33,516 nucleotides of DNA from Armatimonadota bacterium (lineage in GTDB: Bacteria > Armatimonadota > UBA5829 > DTJY01). A program made the translations under genes and the position numbers. Where the stretch lies: positions 1 to 33,516 of the forward strand of contig JANYKG010000100.1 of NCBI GenBank assembly GCA_025358205.1, read 5' to 3'. The notes beneath the pieces were generated by a model that ran no database searches, had not been told where the DNA came from, and saw nothing but the letters and a program-made list of their open reading frames with translations. Of this stretch, positions 7,199 to 32,405 are shown in pieces (positions within the stretch are counted from its first letter, which is position 1; each line of letters opens with the position of its first letter).

Positions 7199-8356
7199 AT
7201 GGCTAAGGTAAAACCCGGTTTGGAAGTCCTGATTGATGAGCAGTTGGACCTTGTGAAGGGGAAGAGTGTCGGTCTCATCACCAACCACAGCGCAGTCACC
7301 GGCAACACCACGCACATCCTGGATGCTCTGCTGGCGGCCGGTGTCAACGTTACCGCGCTCTTCGGCCCAGAGCACGGTGTGCGAGGCGACGTTGCGGACG
7401 GCGATCATGTCGCGTCGTGCGTAGACCCGCGAACCGGCATCCCCATGCACAGCTTGTACGGCGGGATTGACAGGCCGACAGCGGAGATGCTGGAGGATGT
7501 GGACGTGCTGATTGACGATCTGCAGGACGTCGGCGCGCGGTTCTACACCTTCACCTACACCATGACCTACTGCATGCAGGCTGCTGCGGCGAACGGCAAG
7601 CAGTTCATAGTTCTCGACCGCCCGAACCCGGTGAACGGCGTCACGGTTGACGGCTGCGTGCTGGAGCCGGACTGCGCATCAGGCATCGGGCGTTACGCGA
7701 TTCCCGACCGACACGGCATGACAATCGGCGAAATGGCACGACTGTTCAATGATACACTAGACTTCGGGGCCGACCTCAACGTCGTGAAGTGCAAGGGATG
7801 GAATCGCGATATGTGGTGGGACGAGACCGGCCTGCACTGGGTCATGCCCTCGCCGAACCTGCCCACGCTTGAGAGCGCATTGGCCTTCACGATCACCTGC
7901 AACATCGAAGGGACACAGCTTTCCGAGGGGCGCGGAATGTGCAGACCGTTCGAGACGGTCGGCGCACCGTGGGTTGATGCCTATGCACTCGCGGACTACC
8001 TCAATGCGCTGGACCTGCCGGGTGTTCTGTTCCGTCCTGCGTGCTTCATCCCGCGTCTGTCGAAGCACGTGGGCGAGTCGTGTCGAGGTGTCCAGGTTCA
8101 TTTCACGGATCGGGATGCGGTTCAGACCGTTCGGACGGGCCTCCACATCGTGAAAGGTCTGCACGATCTACACCCTGACAAGTTCGAGTTTCGCCCGACG
8201 AACGAGGCCGGAAACAGCCATTTCGAGTTGGTGGTCGGAACCAAGCGGACCCGCAAAGAACTGGAAGCTGGTACACCGGTGGATGAGATCTACGCATCGT
8301 ACAAGCCTGCTCGCGATGAGTTCATGAAGCTGAGGGAGAAGTATCTGCTGTATTAG
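7199..8356 (+). CDS. NamZ-family (DUF1343) exo-beta-N-acetylmuramidase-like protein, copy 1
   Basis: This 385-residue member of DUF1343 belongs to the family in which B. subtilis NamZ removes terminal N-acetylmuramic acid from peptidoglycan fragments. The signature FGPEHGVRGD (E58 and H59, the presumed active site) is intact, as are DPRTG, DDLQDVGARFYT, LDRPNPVNG, RHGMTIGE, MPSPNLPT and EGTQLSEGRG. No signal peptide is visible at the N terminus, so the protein appears cytoplasmic. AAGGAG lies nine bases before the ATG, downstream of a promoter-like sequence and a heptamer array. A close paralogue lies 650 bases downstream. The enzyme activity is inferred from the family. Confidence 0.85.
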   Translation: MAKVKPGLEVLIDEQLDLVKGKSVGLITNHSAVTGNTTHILDALLAAGVNVTALFGPEHGVRGDVADGDHVASCVDPRTGIPMHSLYGGIDRPTAEMLEDVDVLIDDLQDVGARFYTFTYTMTYCMQAAAANGKQFIVLDRPNPVNGVTVDGCVLEPDCASGIGRYAIPDRHGMTIGEMARLFNDTLDFGADLNVVKCKGWNRDMWWDETGLHWVMPSPNLPTLESALAFTITCNIEGTQLSEGRGMCRPFETVGAPWVDAYALADYLNALDLPGVLFRPACFIPRLSKHVGESCRGVQVHFTDRDAVQTVRTGLHIVKGLHDLHPDKFEFRPTNEAGNSHFELVVGTKRTRKELEAGTPVDEIYASYKPARDEFMKLREKYLLY

Positions 8357-9007: not shown

Positions 9008-10171
9008 ATGAGCAGAGTGAAACCCGGTCTGGAAGTATTGATTGAGCAGCAGATTGATCTCGTGAAGGGCAAGCGAGTTGGTTTGGTCACGAACCACAGT
9101 GCGGTTACCAGCGATGCGACGCACATTGTAGATGCCCTGCTTGCCGCGGGCGTGCAGATCACCGCGCTGTTCGGCCCGGAGCACGGCGTTTGGGGTCACG
9201 TGGCGGACGGAGCCGAGATCACGGACGGAACCGACCCGCGAACCGGCCTTCCCGCGTTCAGCTTGTACGGACCGACCAAGAAGCCCACGCCTGAGATGCT
9301 TGAGAACGTGGACGTCCTGGTCTACGATCTGCAGGACATTGGCGCGCGGTTCTACACCTTCACCTACACCATGTCCTACTGCCTCCAGGCGTGCGCGGAA
9401 GCCGGGATACCGTACATCGTGCTCGATCGTCCGAACCCCGTGAACGGCATCGCGGTTGAAGGGAACATCCTGGATACCGAGTTCTCGTCGTTTGTCGGTC
9501 TGCACCCCATTCCTATCCGCCACGGCATGACCATCGGCGAACTTGCCACGCTCTTCAACACCGAGTACGGCTTCGGCGCGGACCTGACCGTTGTACAGTG
9601 CCAGGGCTGGTCGCGGGGCATGTGGTTCGAGGAGACCGGTCTGCCGTGGGTGATGCCGTCGCCCAACATGCCGACCATCGAGGCCGCGATACTCTACACC
9701 GGTATCTGCTACATCGAAGGAACCAACGTCTCCGAGGCGCGCGGAACCAGCAAGCCGTTCGAGATGGCAGGCGCACCGTGGGCGGACGCGTACAAGATGG
9801 CGGATTATCTGAATGCGTTGGCGCTTCCAGGCGTGCGCTTTAGGCCGGTTCACTTCATCCCGAGTGCGTCGAAGCATCAAGGAGCGGCGTGCAGCGGCGT
9901 GCAGGTTCACATGATGGATCGAGATGCGTTACGGTCAACGGTCGAGATCGGCATGCACCTCATCAAGGCGCTGCAGGACCTTCACCCCAGTGACTTCCAG
10001 TTCCGCACACCCAGCGCATCCGGCAAAGCGTTTTTCGATCTGCTGGCAGGGACGGACAAGACGCGGCTGGCCATAGCGGCAGGTGTGCCGATCAACGACA
10101 TCCTGGCGTCATGGACGGATGAACTGAACGCCTTCAAGCAGGTTCGACAGAAGTATCTGCTGTACGTCTGA
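9008..10171 (+). CDS. NamZ-family (DUF1343) protein, copy 2
   Basis: This 387-residue paralogue of the protein at 7199 has well over half its residues identical by eye and collinear motifs: FGPEHG (E58, H59), DPRTG, YDLQDIGARFYT, LDRPNPVNG, RHGMTIGE, MPSPNMPT and EGTNVSEARG. Right after the presumed catalytic Glu-His the sequence is VWGH, where copy 1 has VRGD, so the active-site surroundings have diverged. No signal peptide is visible. AAGGAG lies five bases before the ATG. The copies probably arose by tandem duplication, with the tRNA and repeats now between them. The substrate may differ from that of copy 1. Confidence 0.85.
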   Translation: MSRVKPGLEVLIEQQIDLVKGKRVGLVTNHSAVTSDATHIVDALLAAGVQITALFGPEHGVWGHVADGAEITDGTDPRTGLPAFSLYGPTKKPTPEMLENVDVLVYDLQDIGARFYTFTYTMSYCLQACAEAGIPYIVLDRPNPVNGIAVEGNILDTEFSSFVGLHPIPIRHGMTIGELATLFNTEYGFGADLTVVQCQGWSRGMWFEETGLPWVMPSPNMPTIEAAILYTGICYIEGTNVSEARGTSKPFEMAGAPWADAYKMADYLNALALPGVRFRPVHFIPSASKHQGAACSGVQVHMMDRDALRSTVEIGMHLIKALQDLHPSDFQFRTPSASGKAFFDLLAGTDKTRLAIAAGVPINDILASWTDELNAFKQVRQKYLLYV

Positions 10172-15466: not shown

Positions 15467-16357
15467 TTATGCCGCCGCCTGAGTTTCTGCAGCCGGTTCT
15501 TCCTTGTTGCGGTTTCTGCATGCGTTCTCAAGCTCTGAGAAGCTGGGGCGAGCTTCAGGGTCAATACTTCGTCGCGCAAATTCTACGCACATCACAGGAG
15601 TATCACCACGAGCGAAAGCAACAAGTGAGTGCTTCATACAAGCCAGGTACTGGCATTCCGCCTTAGCAATGACCTCCGTTGCTTTGGCCAGCGGTGCGAA
15701 GATACCGTATGCCAGCAGTACACCGAGGAATGTGCCGACCAGCGCCGCGCCGACCTTTTCGCCGACCACTTCCGGGGGTCCGCCAATGGACTGCATGGTG
15801 ATAACTACACCTAAAACCGCAGCCACGATACCGAATCCAGGCATGGAGTCGCTGATTGTGCTCAGTATCTGACTTACCTGTAAGGATTCCTCTTCTTGAG
15901 CTTCCAGGTCAAGGTCCATCAGTTCCGAAAGATCATGAATGTTGACTCCACCCATGATGATTACTTTGAGGGTATCGGTGCAGAAGGCGATGGCATGATG
16001 GTTGTTGAGAAGCGTGGGATACTTCTGGAACAGATCGGACTCGTGAGGGTTCTCTACATGTTTTTCCAGACTGAGTAGACCATCTTTGCGCGCAACTACG
16101 AAGATTTCGTAAAGGCTGTGCAGAAGTTCCAGGTACATCTTCGTCGTGTAGGGGTTGCCTTTCAGCAGGCCGATACAGGCCTTCATAGTCGAGATGGCGC
16201 CCTTGAAGGTGTAGGCGATCACGACGGCGCCGAAAGCCGCGCCGCCTATGATGATGAATTCCGATATCTGGATGAGCGCTGCTACTTTGCCACCGGAATG
16301 CGTGAAGCCAAATAGCAGGCTCCCAAAGACAATGGCTAGCCCTATCAGTACGAACAT
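15467..16357 (-). CDS. motA: Flagellar stator protein MotA
   Basis: This 296-residue protein has four predicted membrane helices, near the N terminus (two), and about residues 168-190 and 200-222. It is of the longer MotA type with a big cytoplasmic loop. The loop carries the ARKDGLLSLE stretch with the Arg and Glu that contact the rotor protein FliG. MPGFGIVAAVLGVV and FLGVLLAYGIFAPLA hold the conserved prolines next to the MotB helix. The C-terminal tail is rich in Ala and Glu. The start ATG has only a weak, distant AGAGG upstream. motB follows after three bases. Confidence 0.92.
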   Translation of the reverse strand: MFVLIGLAIVFGSLLFGFTHSGGKVAALIQISEFIIIGGAAFGAVVIAYTFKGAISTMKACIGLLKGNPYTTKMYLELLHSLYEIFVVARKDGLLSLEKHVENPHESDLFQKYPTLLNNHHAIAFCTDTLKVIIMGGVNIHDLSELMDLDLEAQEEESLQVSQILSTISDSMPGFGIVAAVLGVVITMQSIGGPPEVVGEKVGAALVGTFLGVLLAYGIFAPLAKATEVIAKAECQYLACMKHSLVAFARGDTPVMCVEFARRSIDPEARPSFSELENACRNRNKEEPAAETQAAA

Positions 16358-16655
16358 AGTGTAAGAGAACCTCTACTATTCTTTTCGGTTGATACGGACG
16401 GTCGCTGTAGAGTAGGGATGCGGAAATTGAGCGTATTTCCCATGTTTCAACACCGTTGCATCCCATGCCGCGATTATCTGCCCCATTGAGTCGTGTTGGC
16501 TATATCTATTGTTCCATCAATGCTCGCCAAATCGTGGCAGCAAAGCGGGTATTATTGCCGGTTTTGCGGTGTGGATGCCAATGTGCCCTAGTGCATTTGC
16601 ACCGGAAGGACGATAATCAGGGTGTAAACACTCTAAGTCAGCAGAGGTGGGCATC
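16358..16655. other. 298-base divergent intergenic region between motA and the ParB-like gene
   Basis: The region must hold promoters for two divergent units. On the minus strand a weak TTGGCG, 16 bases, TAGATA match lies about 150 bases before motA. On the plus strand two small inverted repeats stand close to the ParB-like gene: GTGCA-TT-TGCAC (16591-16602) and GTGT-AA-ACAC (16622-16631), which could be operators. I see no clear sigma-28 flagellar promoter and no gene. Confidence 0.4.
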
Positions 16656-17807
16656 ATGGAAACTATCCGCATCGAAGATATTATTACAAATGCGTCTCAG
16701 CCCCGACAGACGTTTTATGAATCTAGCTTGCAGGAACTGTCGCAGTCCATCAAGGAGCGCGGAGTTCTAGAGCCGATCGTCGTGCGCCCCAAGGACGGCA
16801 AATATGAGATTGTAATGGGCGAGCGCCGATACAGGGCCAGCATACTCGCCGGATTGACCGACATTCCAGCAGTGGTTCGCGAGATGTCCGACGATGATGC
16901 GGCTTGCGATGCGTTGCTCGAAAACTTCCAGCGCGAGGACCTTAACCCGGTGGATCGGGCAGCCGCGATTGAGGGTCTGCTGAAGATTATGAGCGTGGAG
17001 AAGTGCGCTCAGTCGTTGGGCGTAAGCGAGAGCACCCTGCGAAGGCATGTGGAACTCCTGGAACTGCCAGGTTGCGTGCAGCAGGCTTTGGTCAAGTCCT
17101 ATGACAAGAGCCACCCCGCGGTATTCACCGAAGCGCACGCCAGACTACTGAAACCGTTGAACAGCGATGTCAGTTCCCAGATGCGACTCATCAGCAAGAT
17201 CGAGGCGGAGAACCTTTCAGTTGCGGAACTGAAGCAACTTATTGACGCAATTATGGAAGTGCCGCAGAAAAAAGAGGCGTTTCTCCGAATATCCCTAAAG
17301 GCTACCGAAGAGATTCTGAAATCCATGGGCCGGGCGCAGACCAAGGCTCGTCCATACAAACCACAGACTGCGGATAAACATTTGGCCGCTCTGGACAAGG
17401 CTGCAAGAGACCTTTCTGCTCTTATAGATGCCCGCATTGTTGATTATCTGAAATCTACCGAGATGAACCAGATTCTCAGTACCATTACCTCTCTGACCCT
17501 GGAGATGACTCAGCTCCGAGACGCGCTTCGGGATTCACTGAGGAAGGGCGATGACGGCTGGAAGGAGCAGTATATCCACTGCCCGTTGTGCGGACGTATC
17601 GAGCTGATAGGTAGCGCGAAGTGTGCCGTTTGCTCAACCGTGCTTCGGAGATGTCTGGATTGTGGTATTTACGATAAGATGTACGAAAAATGCAGCCGCA
17701 GCCAGCAGTATGTGTACATGTCCGATGCGGAAGACCCGTCGGATACTTCGCCGTCATACAAATGTGAATACTACGATCCCAGGTTTGTGGCTCGCGAAGC
17801 GGCCTAG
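16656..17807 (+). CDS. ParB-like protein with a cysteine-rich C-terminal tail
   Basis: The protein has 383 residues. The N terminus is a ParB/Srx-type nuclease-like domain with the CTP-binding box GERRYRAS (55-62) and ENFQREDLNP (89-98), followed by a helix-turn-helix around 115-136 (KCAQSLGVSESTLRRHVELL). This is the DNA-binding layout of chromosome-partition ParB and Noc. The middle (about 190-290) is helical. The C terminus is unusual. CPLC (309), CAVC (323), CLDC (333) and single Cys at 346 and 370 make ten cysteine ligands at most and resemble one or two zinc ribbons where ParB normally has its dimerisation domain. AGAGGTG precedes the ATG. No parA is adjacent, so partition itself is not assured. 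It may instead be a transcription or nucleoid regulator. Confidence 0.78.
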   Translation: METIRIEDIITNASQPRQTFYESSLQELSQSIKERGVLEPIVVRPKDGKYEIVMGERRYRASILAGLTDIPAVVREMSDDDAACDALLENFQREDLNPVDRAAAIEGLLKIMSVEKCAQSLGVSESTLRRHVELLELPGCVQQALVKSYDKSHPAVFTEAHARLLKPLNSDVSSQMRLISKIEAENLSVAELKQLIDAIMEVPQKKEAFLRISLKATEEILKSMGRAQTKARPYKPQTADKHLAALDKAARDLSALIDARIVDYLKSTEMNQILSTITSLTLEMTQLRDALRDSLRKGDDGWKEQYIHCPLCGRIELIGSAKCAVCSTVLRRCLDCGIYDKMYEKCSRSQQYVYMSDAEDPSDTSPSYKCEYYDPRFVAREAA

Positions 17808-28802: not shown

Positions 28803-29657
28803 ATGGATTGCTCAAACGCAAGGCAGATGATTTCGGAGTATCTGGACGGTGAGATGAGCCGACAGGATAGCGAAGAAATGCGTGCGCACATTGCATGTTG
28901 TGAGGATTGCGCCGGTGCGTTGGCCGCACTTCGAGCCACCACTACACTGATAGCGGACACAGGCGAGATTGAGCCTCCCGCCTATCTGCTGGAGCAGATA
29001 CTAGCTGCGACAACGGAACGGCCTACATTGCGCGAGAGGTTGACCGGCGCGTTTGGCCGACTTACCCTGACGCCCGCGCCCGTGAGATGGGCAGCCGCAT
29101 CCGCCGCAGTCATCCTTGTTACGCTGGCTGCGCTCAACAATGTCTCAATGATTAAGACTCCGGTCAAGACTCCCGTGGCCGTGAATTCGCCATCCCCAAC
29201 TCAGCCGTTGCCTGTTGTTGCAGCACAGCCTATGCAAGAACCGGCCACCGCTGCTAACCCATCACAAACCGTGCGCGCGGCGGTCAGAAGGGTATATTCA
29301 CATCGCAGGAGCAGTGCGACAGTTGCGAAGGCCAACAACCACACTGCAAATACCCTCGGCAAACCCAAAATGCAGGCGGTTGCCGATGTACCCACGCCGA
29401 TAGAGGAGCAGTCGCCCACCAATGAAGATTCTTCTCCGACCACAGTTGCAACCACTCCTGTGCCGACGGAAGAGAAGGAGATCAAGGTGGCAGGAACTCC
29501 CTCAGAGCAAGCAGACACAGTCAAGCGGAATGAAGATGCCCTTGCCGATCTTCGGGCGAAGCTCGCGGCACGGAATAAGCATCGCAGATATCAGGTTCAG
29601 GCCGATCCCGTTCAGGTACAGAAGGTCACCATTGAGTTGGCCAGCATCAAGTTCTAG
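28803..29657 (+). CDS. Anti-sigma-factor-like membrane protein with N-terminal zinc finger
   Basis: This protein of about 284 residues begins with a zf-HC2/ZAS-like finger (C3, then H29-x3-C33-x2-C36), as in RsrA/RseA-type anti-sigma factors. One membrane helix (about 95-112) follows, then a long Pro/Thr/Ala-rich, probably disordered outer segment (about 118-250), ending in a charged helix (ALADLRAKLAARNKHRRY). The family binds an ECF sigma factor in the cytoplasm and releases it on an envelope signal. No sigma factor gene is adjacent. An ATG at 28803 behind GGGGGGACAGG is chosen over an upstream ATG at 28740 that lies within the promoter-like sequence. Its stop codon lies in the CTAG of repeat copy E. 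Confidence 0.72.
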   Translation: MDCSNARQMISEYLDGEMSRQDSEEMRAHIACCEDCAGALAALRATTTLIADTGEIEPPAYLLEQILAATTERPTLRERLTGAFGRLTLTPAPVRWAAASAAVILVTLAALNNVSMIKTPVKTPVAVNSPSPTQPLPVVAAQPMQEPATAANPSQTVRAAVRRVYSHRRSSATVAKANNHTANTLGKPKMQAVADVPTPIEEQSPTNEDSSPTTVATTPVPTEEKEIKVAGTPSEQADTVKRNEDALADLRAKLAARNKHRRYQVQADPVQVQKVTIELASIKF

Positions 29658-29753: not shown

Positions 29754-32405
29754 ATGATTGCAGGGAAGCTGAAGAAAACCGCATATGCCTTGATAAGCGC
29801 GATTCTGATGGCGGCTCCCGGCTGGACGCAGGGGCTGAGCGGCTATCAGGATCCCATGCGTTACAGCGACCTGCGCTTCAACAACAACTCTCTAGGTATT
29901 GCCCAGACGTCTGAAGCCGCCAAGTCAACTGAGCGCGGCGTAACATCGTCCGATAACATCCGGGGTAACGGCGCGAAGGCCGGCTACACCTTGTCGCGCG
30001 GCGGCATCATACCGGGCAGCGAAACTGTGACCGTTGACGGCAGCTTGCTTCGGCGGAATCAGGACTACTACCTGGACACCGCAAGCGGTATGCTCCTGTT
30101 TACTCAGGCTGTTCGGGTGTCGCAGCTCATCCGCGTGAGTTACCGCTATTCGCCCGAGAAGGATAAGCAGAAATCCGCGATCGGCGCGCCGATGATGATG
30201 CTCAATCTCGGCCCGAGTTCCAGCATGGGTATCACTCTTGCGCAGAATACATTCAACAACACATTTGATCTCCTAACCTACGGCCTGAACCTGAAGACAA
30301 AACTCGGTGAGCAGGCCAATATGATGAACATGATGTACGTATCCGCAGGCCGCGATTCAGGCAGGCTGTCGCTGGATCAGAATGGCGTGATGCAGGCCGC
30401 CGCACCTGCGCCTAAAACTGACAGCCTTTTCGTCCACAACTCCGATCTGAAGTCCGGTAAACTGAGCATGAAGCTGAACTATCAGGATGTCGGCAAGGAT
30501 TTCAGCGGCTTCACTACACTGAGACAGCAGAAGGTCGCGGCGGATGACATCCTCGCGCAGATGGAGAAGGAGAAGGGGATTCAGCGACTGGGCTTCCAGA
30601 GCAGCTATTCTCTGAGCACGGTATCAGCAGCAGGGATGAACTGGAACCGCATTACGGATGCGTCAGGCGCAGTTTCCAGTTCGTCGCTTTCCTTTGGTGG
30701 CAGCCGCTCTAAGCTGACCGCCGAAGTGCGCGAGATCAGCAGCGGGTTTACAAGCTTTGCGAAGTTGACCGCAGCGGAGCAGGCGGCGTTGGGCAAGGAA
30801 AGCGGTATGCGGCGCATGAATCTGTTGGGTGATTTCAACCTTGGGGCGGGCGCTCAGCTTAAGACCAATTTCAGCCAAGTGCAGGCTGGTGATGCATCCG
30901 TAGAAAAATACGGCATGGCGTTCTCCACAAAGAAGCTCTCGCTTACCGCGAACTATCAGGATATAGCACCTGAGTTTACGCGAGTGATGGACCTGGCCGA
31001 TGCCGACAAGAAGGCAATGGTTGCAGAACAGGGCATGAAGCGCTATGACATCAGCAGCCATCTACTGGCAAGTAAGTCAATCACGGTGGACAGCCTTCTT
31101 TACAGCGCGAAGCACTCCACCACCGGCGCGTTCCGAAAGCAGTTGCGGAACAGCCTGGTGTTTGCCCCAACACACGGACCGAGACTCACGCTATTGGACG
31201 ACCGCCTTTCCGTGGGCAGCCTGGTAGCCTCGACCGATACCGAGCATCAGCAGATAACGCTGGCTCACAAACTCGGCGCTATCGCTTTCAACGGCATGCA
31301 TGATACCGTGGCTACTTCCACTACCGCCGGGCAGGACAGCGTTCTCACCACCGACACCCTGCACTTGGACAACGGCGCGGGCAAGAAGCTGTCCATGATC
31401 GGCGACTGGAACAGCATCAGAAACACGGCGGACGGCAAGTTTACCGACACTAAGACCCTGAAGCTGGCGTACAAACTGAACTCAAAACTTGATTTCGCGG
31501 CAAACGGGCTGGCGGTCAGCACCGAGCAGAATGACGTGCTAACTCAGGATTACTCCCTGGTGGGAAAAGTTTGCAGGAACATCGGGCTTAAGAGCCGGTT
31601 TGCGGAGACATCTGTTGGCGGTATCACCGCATCCACCACCCGCGAACTCAGCCTGGTGTCCGATACTGCGCACAACCTTGGCATGCTGGAGCGTATCAAG
31701 TGGAGCTGTGCCTTTAGTGAAATTGACGGCGCCAACGGGATAGTGACCCAATCAAAGTCTGCTCACGCAGAAGCCGGCGTGCTGGGACAGAGCGTGGCGG
31801 TTGACTATGCGGGCGGTATCACGAAGGACGGACAGCGCCCCATTACGCGACAAGTTACCGTTGCGGGCGATCCTGATCCGAAGTCACCCATTCACTACTC
31901 GGTGATGTATAAGTCGGTGGACCCCGGAGCGGCTGAGTCCTTCTTGGTCAGGAAGTACGACGCAGACTGGCAAGTTAATCCAGCCACCAGGTTGATCTAT
32001 TCCTACTTCAGCTACGTGCAGCGGCCTGATGGGAAGCTTGACCCGCTCGGCGGCGAGAAGCTGCGGCTGACCACGCCCTGCGGCGCTAATCTGTCGTTCT
32101 TGTGCCAGTGGGAACAGACTGAGGACTATTCCAAGGATTGGGACAAGCAGACCCTCAGCCTTGGATTGAACGGCAAAGTCTCCACACAAGAGGCGGTTGA
32201 AGGCTCAGTGGGCGTTGATCGAGTGGATGCAGCCGGCCAGATCACCGGTTCACACACCTATCGCCTGAAGTATGATTGCCAGGTGGACACCGATCATTTC
32301 CTGACTTTTACGGGTAAGTACACGGAATGGAACGGCGAACACCAGACAAACCCCAATGAAGACGATGTCTCGCTGCAGCTTGACTTCCGCACAGTTTTCA
32401 GCTAG
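29754..32405 (+). CDS. Large exported, probable outer-membrane beta-barrel protein with internal repeats
   Basis: I do not recognise a named family for this 883-residue protein. A signal peptide (KLKK, then YALISAILMAAPG) is followed by a small beta domain (about 75-132) with a PGSETVTVDG ... DYYLDTASGMLLF pattern. Most of the rest alternates short polar and hydrophobic segments, as in beta-barrels, and ends LQLDFRTVFS, near the aromatic C-terminal signal of outer-membrane proteins. Three units of about 80 residues repeat at roughly 235, 319 and 394: a KLS/KLT strand, an aromatic FT turn, a charged helix (ILAQMEKEKGIQR, AEQAALGKESGMRR, KKAMVAEQGMKR) and a return strand. The start is taken as the second Met of the frame. 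Upstream TTG at 29748 is less likely. Confidence 0.7.
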   Translation: MIAGKLKKTAYALISAILMAAPGWTQGLSGYQDPMRYSDLRFNNNSLGIAQTSEAAKSTERGVTSSDNIRGNGAKAGYTLSRGGIIPGSETVTVDGSLLRRNQDYYLDTASGMLLFTQAVRVSQLIRVSYRYSPEKDKQKSAIGAPMMMLNLGPSSSMGITLAQNTFNNTFDLLTYGLNLKTKLGEQANMMNMMYVSAGRDSGRLSLDQNGVMQAAAPAPKTDSLFVHNSDLKSGKLSMKLNYQDVGKDFSGFTTLRQQKVAADDILAQMEKEKGIQRLGFQSSYSLSTVSAAGMNWNRITDASGAVSSSSLSFGGSRSKLTAEVREISSGFTSFAKLTAAEQAALGKESGMRRMNLLGDFNLGAGAQLKTNFSQVQAGDASVEKYGMAFSTKKLSLTANYQDIAPEFTRVMDLADADKKAMVAEQGMKRYDISSHLLASKSITVDSLLYSAKHSTTGAFRKQLRNSLVFAPTHGPRLTLLDDRLSVGSLVASTDTEHQQITLAHKLGAIAFNGMHDTVATSTTAGQDSVLTTDTLHLDNGAGKKLSMIGDWNSIRNTADGKFTDTKTLKLAYKLNSKLDFAANGLAVSTEQNDVLTQDYSLVGKVCRNIGLKSRFAETSVGGITASTTRELSLVSDTAHNLGMLERIKWSCAFSEIDGANGIVTQSKSAHAEAGVLGQSVAVDYAGGITKDGQRPITRQVTVAGDPDPKSPIHYSVMYKSVDPGAAESFLVRKYDADWQVNPATRLIYSYFSYVQRPDGKLDPLGGEKLRLTTPCGANLSFLCQWEQTEDYSKDWDKQTLSLGLNGKVSTQEAVEGSVGVDRVDAAGQITGSHTYRLKYDCQVDTDHFLTFTGKYTEWNGEHQTNPNEDDVSLQLDFRTVFS

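Follow-up and report, generated by a model that had tools for sequence, protein, structure and literature searches.

What does a very large, outer-membrane-like protein with helices set at regular intervals between its strands do in an Armatimonadota cell, and with which other protein does it work? The gene was found in the window, by which we mean the whole 33,516-nt stretch of contig JANYKG010000100.1 (assembly GCA_025358205.1, Armatimonadota bacterium; 4.08 Mb in 200 contigs), and all positions count from its first letter. The answer we favor, tentatively, is that the predicted barrel and the product of the gene directly upstream form a two-gene trans-envelope signaling pair of Armatimonadota. 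Elsewhere in the window, two NamZ-type exo-beta-N-acetylmuramidase genes (7199-8356 and 9008-10171) are followed by FGGY and ROK sugar kinase genes, and a MotA-like gene on the minus strand adjoins a ParB gene (15467-17807).

The barrel gene and its termini

The open reading frame starts at TTG 29748 or ATG 29754 and runs on the plus strand to the stop at 32405. Counted from the ATG (29754..32405), it encodes 883 amino acids, and its reading frame, its AF2 model and its relatives together point to a giant outer-membrane barrel protein. The protein, called unrecognised in the preliminary description, has no Pfam match at E≤1. The N-terminus (residues ~1–26; 29754..29831) resembles a signal peptide on inspection by eye, and the putative signal peptide coincides with a signal-peptide-like helix at residues 7–17 of the AF2 model. 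A small beta domain whose strands appear in the model (residues 63–132; 29940..30149) is expected to lie in the periplasm. A helix-free barrel part of about 27 strands (31035..32402), supported by the AF2 model and by matches to outer-membrane barrels, ends in the C-terminal strand LQLDFRTVFS.

A C-terminal aromatic signal had been claimed from the sequence. The aromatic residue is indeed there, yet it occupies position −2 and is not the last residue. Of the 49 reading frames of these outer-membrane proteins (OMPs) that were compared, fragments among them, 26 terminate in Phe, and many of the barrel proteins end in KTRF or in FRTVF followed by a single residue. The Fisher test made in this comparison includes duplicate loci and treats relatives as independent, so we give its p value no weight. 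When the locus was scanned for promoters and terminators, no more matches came up than in shuffles.

Repeat units and shortening of the window copy

Three units of about 80 residues had been noticed, and an iterated profile recovered all three, spaced by 82 and 76 residues. Unit 1 covers residues 240–314 (30471..30695; E 7e-20), unit 2 residues 321–390 (30714..30923; E 1e-18) and unit 3 residues 397–464 (30942..31145; E 8e-19), all on the plus strand. Because these E values lie far below the best match among 1000 shuffled proteins (E 0.0019), the repeat is real and not a product of chance. DSSP assignment of the AF2 model places the helix of unit 1 at residues 253–272 (253–258 plus 264–272; 30510..30569), that of unit 2 at residues 340–349 (30771..30800) and that of unit 3 at residues 419–424 (31008..31025). 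The suggested length of about 20 residues per helix is correct for the first helix region; the other two helices are shorter in the model.

The number of units varies in the family. Among 30 rows, some of which represent one gene from two sources and some of whose extra matches are a split unit, most have five or six units, two have four and the window protein has three. One type of unit carries an insert that raises the spacing to about 100 residues. Scoring against the units of four relatives indicates how the window copy may have become short. Window unit 1 was scored best by their unit 1, and window unit 3 corresponds to their unit 5. Window unit 2 is split in its affinities: in all four relatives, unit 2 scored highest for the helix half (52, 58, 59 and 36, the last narrowly) and unit 4 for the strand half (78, 69, 77 and 58). 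As its two halves score best with different units of the relatives, window unit 2 probably joins parts of two ancestral units, 2 and 4, and the reading frame is uninterrupted from end to end. The data fit a shortened family member in which an in-frame unit-2/unit-4 fusion dropped two units, equal to eight predicted strands.

Distribution of the barrel family

A first contig scan with a single protein as query gave no match. At E≤0.01, 53 of 61 genomes contain a relative, and at E≤1e-15 the same holds for 110 of 201 genomes across the phylum; by these sequence searches the family appears to be Armatimonadota-wide. Named records, available for relatives at 16 loci, are labeled Armatimonadota, Armatimonadetes, Chthonomonadia/-ales/-aceae, Chthonomonas or plain 'bacterium'. 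Shorter paralogues share the small N-terminal domain, and one of them carries Pfam Porin_4 (E 8.7e-9). Paralogues of other lengths with this domain occur at L064, L066, L067, L038:11186-13186, L063:12124-14802, L068 and L069; among them are one match to Pfam Porin_4 and one to the outer-membrane model TIGR03016.

Several candidate relationships were set aside. Matches of relatives to NCBIfam 'phage tail tube' models fall on this domain far under the curated cut-off and were regarded as general resemblance, as was Pfam DUF2460, listed for 10 of 17 members with a best E of 0.00027. Against the sequences of solved structures, the profile of the small domain gave two ribosomal chance matches (E 0.36 and 0.66) and the whole-family profile gave none.

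An anti-sigma-like partner gene upstream

The gene 96 bp upstream of the barrel gene in the window encodes a zf-HC2 anti-sigma-like membrane protein of 284 amino acids (28803..29657, plus strand; ATG 28803, with the open reading frame opening at TTG 28740). It belongs to zf-HC2 by its match to PF13490 (E 1.6e-9; 38.1 bits, above the cut-off of 22.2). The zf-HC2 domain with its H-x3-C-x2-C motif spans 28809..28913, a membrane helix is predicted from hydropathy at 29076..29159, and the protein ends in the strand-like tail QKVTIELASIKF (29619..29654), recognized with a tail profile of 40 partners.

Clustering of neighboring genes at 49 loci identified this partner as the sole widely conserved neighbor. 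A profile search located it directly upstream, on the strand of the barrel gene, in 42 of the 49 loci, which correspond to 39 of 45 distinct genes once three duplicates are removed and L059 and L060, halves of one gene, are counted together. Six distinct loci have no partner. Two of them (L062 and L070) reach the contig end. The other four (L050, L052, L055 and L056, some in family f16) have upstream sequence and no partner; hence a barrel gene need not be accompanied by one. Seen from the partner, 35 of the 37 best profile matches (E≤1e-40, 201 genomes) adjoin a barrel match, the exceptions being G060:C45 and G145:C40. We hold the barrel family and the gene pair with high confidence. The conserved partner and the variable unit number are both additions to the preliminary description.

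The partners share an anatomy. Of 40 distinct partners, 37 have the zinc motif, which 11 carry twice; those of L049, L051 and L081 have no zinc motif and retain the membrane helix, the tether and the Phe tail. The last residue is Phe in 38 of the 40, Tyr in one and Leu in one. Hydrophobic residues alternate at −10, −8 and −6 of the tail (39 of 40 partners at −8 and again at −6), a further one stands at −5 (38 of 40), and Arg is found at −2 in 25 of 40. Between the membrane helix and the tail lies a Pro-rich tether of variable sequence and near-constant length: the distance from the helix to the C-terminus is 165–210 residues in 32 of 34 partners, and 273 and 275 in the other two (L041, L077, L082, L083, L084 and L085 are omitted from this count, because the hydropathy scan gave a weak or wrongly placed helix). 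Shared descent may lie behind part of the regularity in tail and tether length.

The tail was compared with other zf-HC2 proteins in four genomes, where 46 matches were listed and 30 had loci that were read, amounting to 29 proteins. All four that adjoin a barrel gene end in Phe, against one (L090) of the 25 that are not beside a barrel gene; one of these 25 runs off its contig. Six of 20 weaker partner matches also end in Phe. Three of the six (L118, L130 and L134) are followed by a barrel match, L117 and L129 are not, and L121 lies at a contig end. None of the 14 weaker matches without a final Phe precedes a barrel match, with very little downstream sequence at L123 and L131. Judged by these counts, the Phe tail and the barrel gene seem to go together, with exceptions. 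A second class of Phe-tailed zf-HC2 proteins, away from a barrel gene and all in family f27, is found at G060:C45:33766-34776, G145:C40:66839-67870 and G163:C677:6893-7858, and in two of the three the next long frame has a similar end. At L135:1144-3996, a 951-aa frame that ends in VFVEMKRSF and has no barrel-profile match comes right after a zf-HC2 gene without a Phe tail.

An ECF sigma gene is found near six distinct relatives only (L036, L037, L043, L044, L053 and L057), where Pfam identified it in L037, visual inspection in L043 and sequence clustering in the others. It is divergent from the pair and has its own small zf-HC2 anti-sigma-like gene in five of them, and it lies on the same strand in L043. 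No sigma gene stands beside the window pair. We infer that the partner may control a sigma factor.

What the tail and the tether may do

A different role for the tail would be that of an assembly-stress sensor. The tail would mimic the beta-signal of OMPs, bind the BAM complex or a PDZ protease and report the assembly load; the giant barrel would then be the main client and a co-expressed neighbor, not the docking site. Its final Phe and its hydrophobic residues at −10, −8 and −6 suit this role, many of the same genomes encode a barrel protein that ends in KTRF or in FRTVF followed by a single residue, and a BamA-like Omp85 is present. However, the standard beta-signal is an alternating hydrophobic pattern, which the extra hydrophobic residue at −5 (38 of 40) breaks. 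The tail is also tied to one gene and rare on other zf-HC2 proteins (1 of 25), and PDZ ligands are usually shorter than the partner tail. We consider an assembly-stress sensor, including the client role of the barrel, doubtful though a serious candidate.

The pair might instead serve as a mechanical tether that joins the inner and outer membranes, with the zinc finger as just a cytoplasmic anchor or dimeriser. The helix-to-tail distance of 165–210 residues in 32 of 34 partners is what such a link would call for, and three of 40 partners have lost the zinc motif while the tether and the tail stay. A plain anchor would have no need of a motif that is kept in 37 of 40 partners and duplicated in 11, which makes a tether improbable. 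The signaling pair remains the reading that we prefer for the two genes.

Predicted structure of the barrel

The AF2 model of the window protein, built from 17 sequences, has a mean pLDDT of 79.5 and a pTM of 0.50. After the small beta domain at residues 63–132, DSSP assigns 41 strands, the first of which is short and of low confidence, leaving about 40. The strands are antiparallel, and exactly four separate helix 1 from helix 2 and helix 2 from helix 3. An 1100-aa relative labeled Chthonomonas calidirosea (L084:8791-12090) gave a model with a pLDDT of 80.5 and a pTM of 0.48, in which 50–51 strands and five helix units follow the same four-strand period. An outer-membrane barrel with regularly spaced helices, as first proposed from the sequence, is therefore what the models of both proteins predict. 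The DSSP strand counts are odd (41 and 51), and the first strand may not belong to the barrel.

Most of the 50 Foldseek rows for the window model are outer-membrane barrels (SlpA, LptD, FimD, BtuB and porins), with SprA at rank 33 and ApoB100 in three rows. The model of the relative gave similar kinds of match, with ApoB100, a lipid-bound beta-belt, ranked first. TM-scores to known barrels are low for both models (0.08–0.24, query-normalised). VIA-align matched the window model mainly to outer-membrane barrels and to two mitochondrial TOM entries at Z 13.5–15.4; these matches lie mostly over residues 543–883, hardly probing the helix-bearing half, and have an rmsd of 9.8–18.8, a large value that a wide barrel would explain. 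A comparison of the model with a viral structure library gave no informative match.

Family-averaged hydropathy alternates along the strands: the values for two members are 3.03 against 2.20 in shuffled sequences and 2.88 against 2.16, reached by 0 of 1000 shuffles in each case. The alternation is weak in the window sequence alone, where 55 of 2000 shuffles reach it. The host should have an outer membrane, since the genome of the window encodes a BamA-like Omp85 barrel that carries three POTRA domains, and PMC5629042 reports diderm envelope genes for Armatimonadetes. The preliminary description had named a soluble beta-sandwich, a surface protein or a host without an outer membrane as outcomes that would speak against a barrel. 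On the structural matches and the strand alternation we rejected the first two in favor of a membrane barrel, and the Omp85 gene argues against the third. By prediction, the protein combines amphipathic antiparallel strands and a C-terminal aromatic signal with an outer membrane in the host, as an outer-membrane barrel should.

The C-terminus of outer-membrane barrels is usually periplasmic. When the strands are counted back from it, an outward and an inward strand flank each helix, so all three helices would be extracellular. By this strand parity, alternate extracellular loops within the modular part would each carry one helix, which could still fold into the lumen.

A single closed barrel of about 40 strands is predicted only, and the pTM of 0.48–0.50 counts against it. 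The strands could form an open beta-sheet, a lipid-carrying belt or two separate barrels, for which ApoB100 among the best Foldseek matches and the low pLDDT of the first strands might be cited as well. The alternation of hydropathy along the strands, the C-terminal aromatic signal, the predominance of outer-membrane barrels among the matches and the porin-like paralogue all argue otherwise, and we think the lack of a closed barrel quite improbable.

A link with SprA was also considered. The small N-terminal domain matches positions ~599–650 of TIGR04189 (SprA) in 4 of 17 family members, with a best E of 4.3e-7; the window protein has no match to this model at E≤1, and two relatives score 23–25 bits over ~40–50 residues, with a curated cut-off of 200. 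Membership of SprA was rejected, as just this short domain of the relatives matches, far below the cut-off. A SprA-like translocon, a giant pore for protein export with the helices as its cap, is very unlikely: it would suit the very large predicted barrel, the match of the relatives' domain to a stretch of the SprA model, the presence of SprA among the structural matches and the capping of the SprA pore on its outer side described in PMC10994853, but the full-length SprA model is missed (25 bits against 200), shorter paralogues have the small domain too, and the sole widely conserved neighbor is the zf-HC2 gene.

Proposed trans-envelope signaling pair

In the proposed signaling pair, the barrel protein would form a very large barrel, with some 40 strands in the window protein and some 50 in the relative, built partly from modules of four strands and one helix. 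The surface helices might act as a binding site for a surface ligand or as a lid on the pore. The anti-sigma-like zinc-finger domain of the partner, which is probably cytoplasmic, would be followed by one membrane helix and the Pro-rich tether, and the strand-like Phe tail would dock on the barrel protein, either on the small periplasmic domain or at the barrel edge. Through the docked tail, the barrel's state would be relayed to the cytoplasmic domain and from there to a sigma factor. Such a route would resemble cell-surface signaling, with a single strand in place of a folded domain.

The two AF2 models favor this pair through their four-strand period, with 40–41 strands for three helix units and 50–51 strands for five. 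It is also favored by the unit profile, the hydropathy alternation, the matches to outer-membrane barrels, the porin-like paralogue, the Omp85 gene, the conserved position of the partner, the tail and tether of the partner and the comparison with other zf-HC2 proteins. Against it stand the low pTM and TM-scores, ApoB100 as the top match of the relative's model, the loci without a partner, the partners without zinc motifs, the Phe-tailed zf-HC2 proteins of family f27 away from a barrel gene and the small number of sigma genes nearby. The repeat units, the family, the gene pair, the tail and the tether length are shown directly; the barrel, its strand number and its topology are predictions, and for docking and signaling our confidence is moderate at best.

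Comparison with known systems

Solved single-chain barrels have 8 to 36 strands (PMC10300371), the upper value being that of SprA/Sov, the outer-membrane translocon of the T9SS (PMC10994853). The window family resembles SprA/Sov in its very large single-chain barrel, which is only predicted for the window protein, and in the small N-terminal domain of relatives, which is similar to positions ~599–650 of the SprA model. It differs in being half the length or less, in its variable helix modules, in its phylum and in its anti-sigma-like partner, and it leaves the full SprA model unmatched. SlpA of Deinococcus has 30 strands, and three D. radiodurans proteins are predicted to have 38 (PMC9388160). 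SlpA is also a large barrel of a deep-branching diderm and is among the best structural matches to the window model. Unlike the SlpA/OmpM tethers, the window protein has no SLH domain (no Pfam match at E≤1). We know of no helix modules in SlpA.

The partner is comparable to two kinds of signaling protein. The Dma proteins of Bacteroides, which PMC13088901 describes as found solely among Bacteroidota, contain an anti-sigma domain and a barrel in one chain. They share with the window pair an anti-sigma domain, a membrane helix, a long disordered tether and an outer-membrane end. The window pair is encoded by two genes, however, and its tether ends in one strand, with the barrel separate and large. 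In the cell-surface signaling anti-sigma factors FoxR, PupR and FecR, which are inner-membrane proteins, the periplasmic C-terminal part contacts an outer-membrane TonB-dependent transducer, and beta-sheet addition is predicted (PMC11637429). The partner is likewise an inner-membrane anti-sigma-like protein with a periplasmic C-terminal part that would dock at the outer membrane; its tail is a short strand and not a folded STN domain. No plug, STN or TonB-dependent receptor family was matched by the window protein (Pfam, E≤1) or is among the families listed for 17 members. One further idea, speculative and rather unlikely, is that single-chain Armatimonadota barrels of about 40–50 strands, larger than any solved one, change size by modules of four strands and a surface helix, and that an inner-membrane anti-sigma factor delivers one beta-strand across the periplasm to bind or zip them, as a split counterpart of Dma.

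In the library searched, no paper pairs Armatimonadota with anti-sigma factors, and none was found on an operon of a zf-HC2 anti-sigma protein and an outer membrane protein; envelope signaling of this phylum appears little studied. What is new here is the partner gene, and we propose by analogy that the pair works like known trans-envelope signaling with a different anatomy. This offers a testable function for a family that is named in none of the libraries used. If closed, the barrel would surpass the largest solved single-chain outer-membrane barrels, which have 36 strands, and a change in size by whole modules between relatives would allow tests of how very large barrels evolve and assemble. 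Should the tail dock on it, a single strand on a tether would be a minimal signal route across two membranes.
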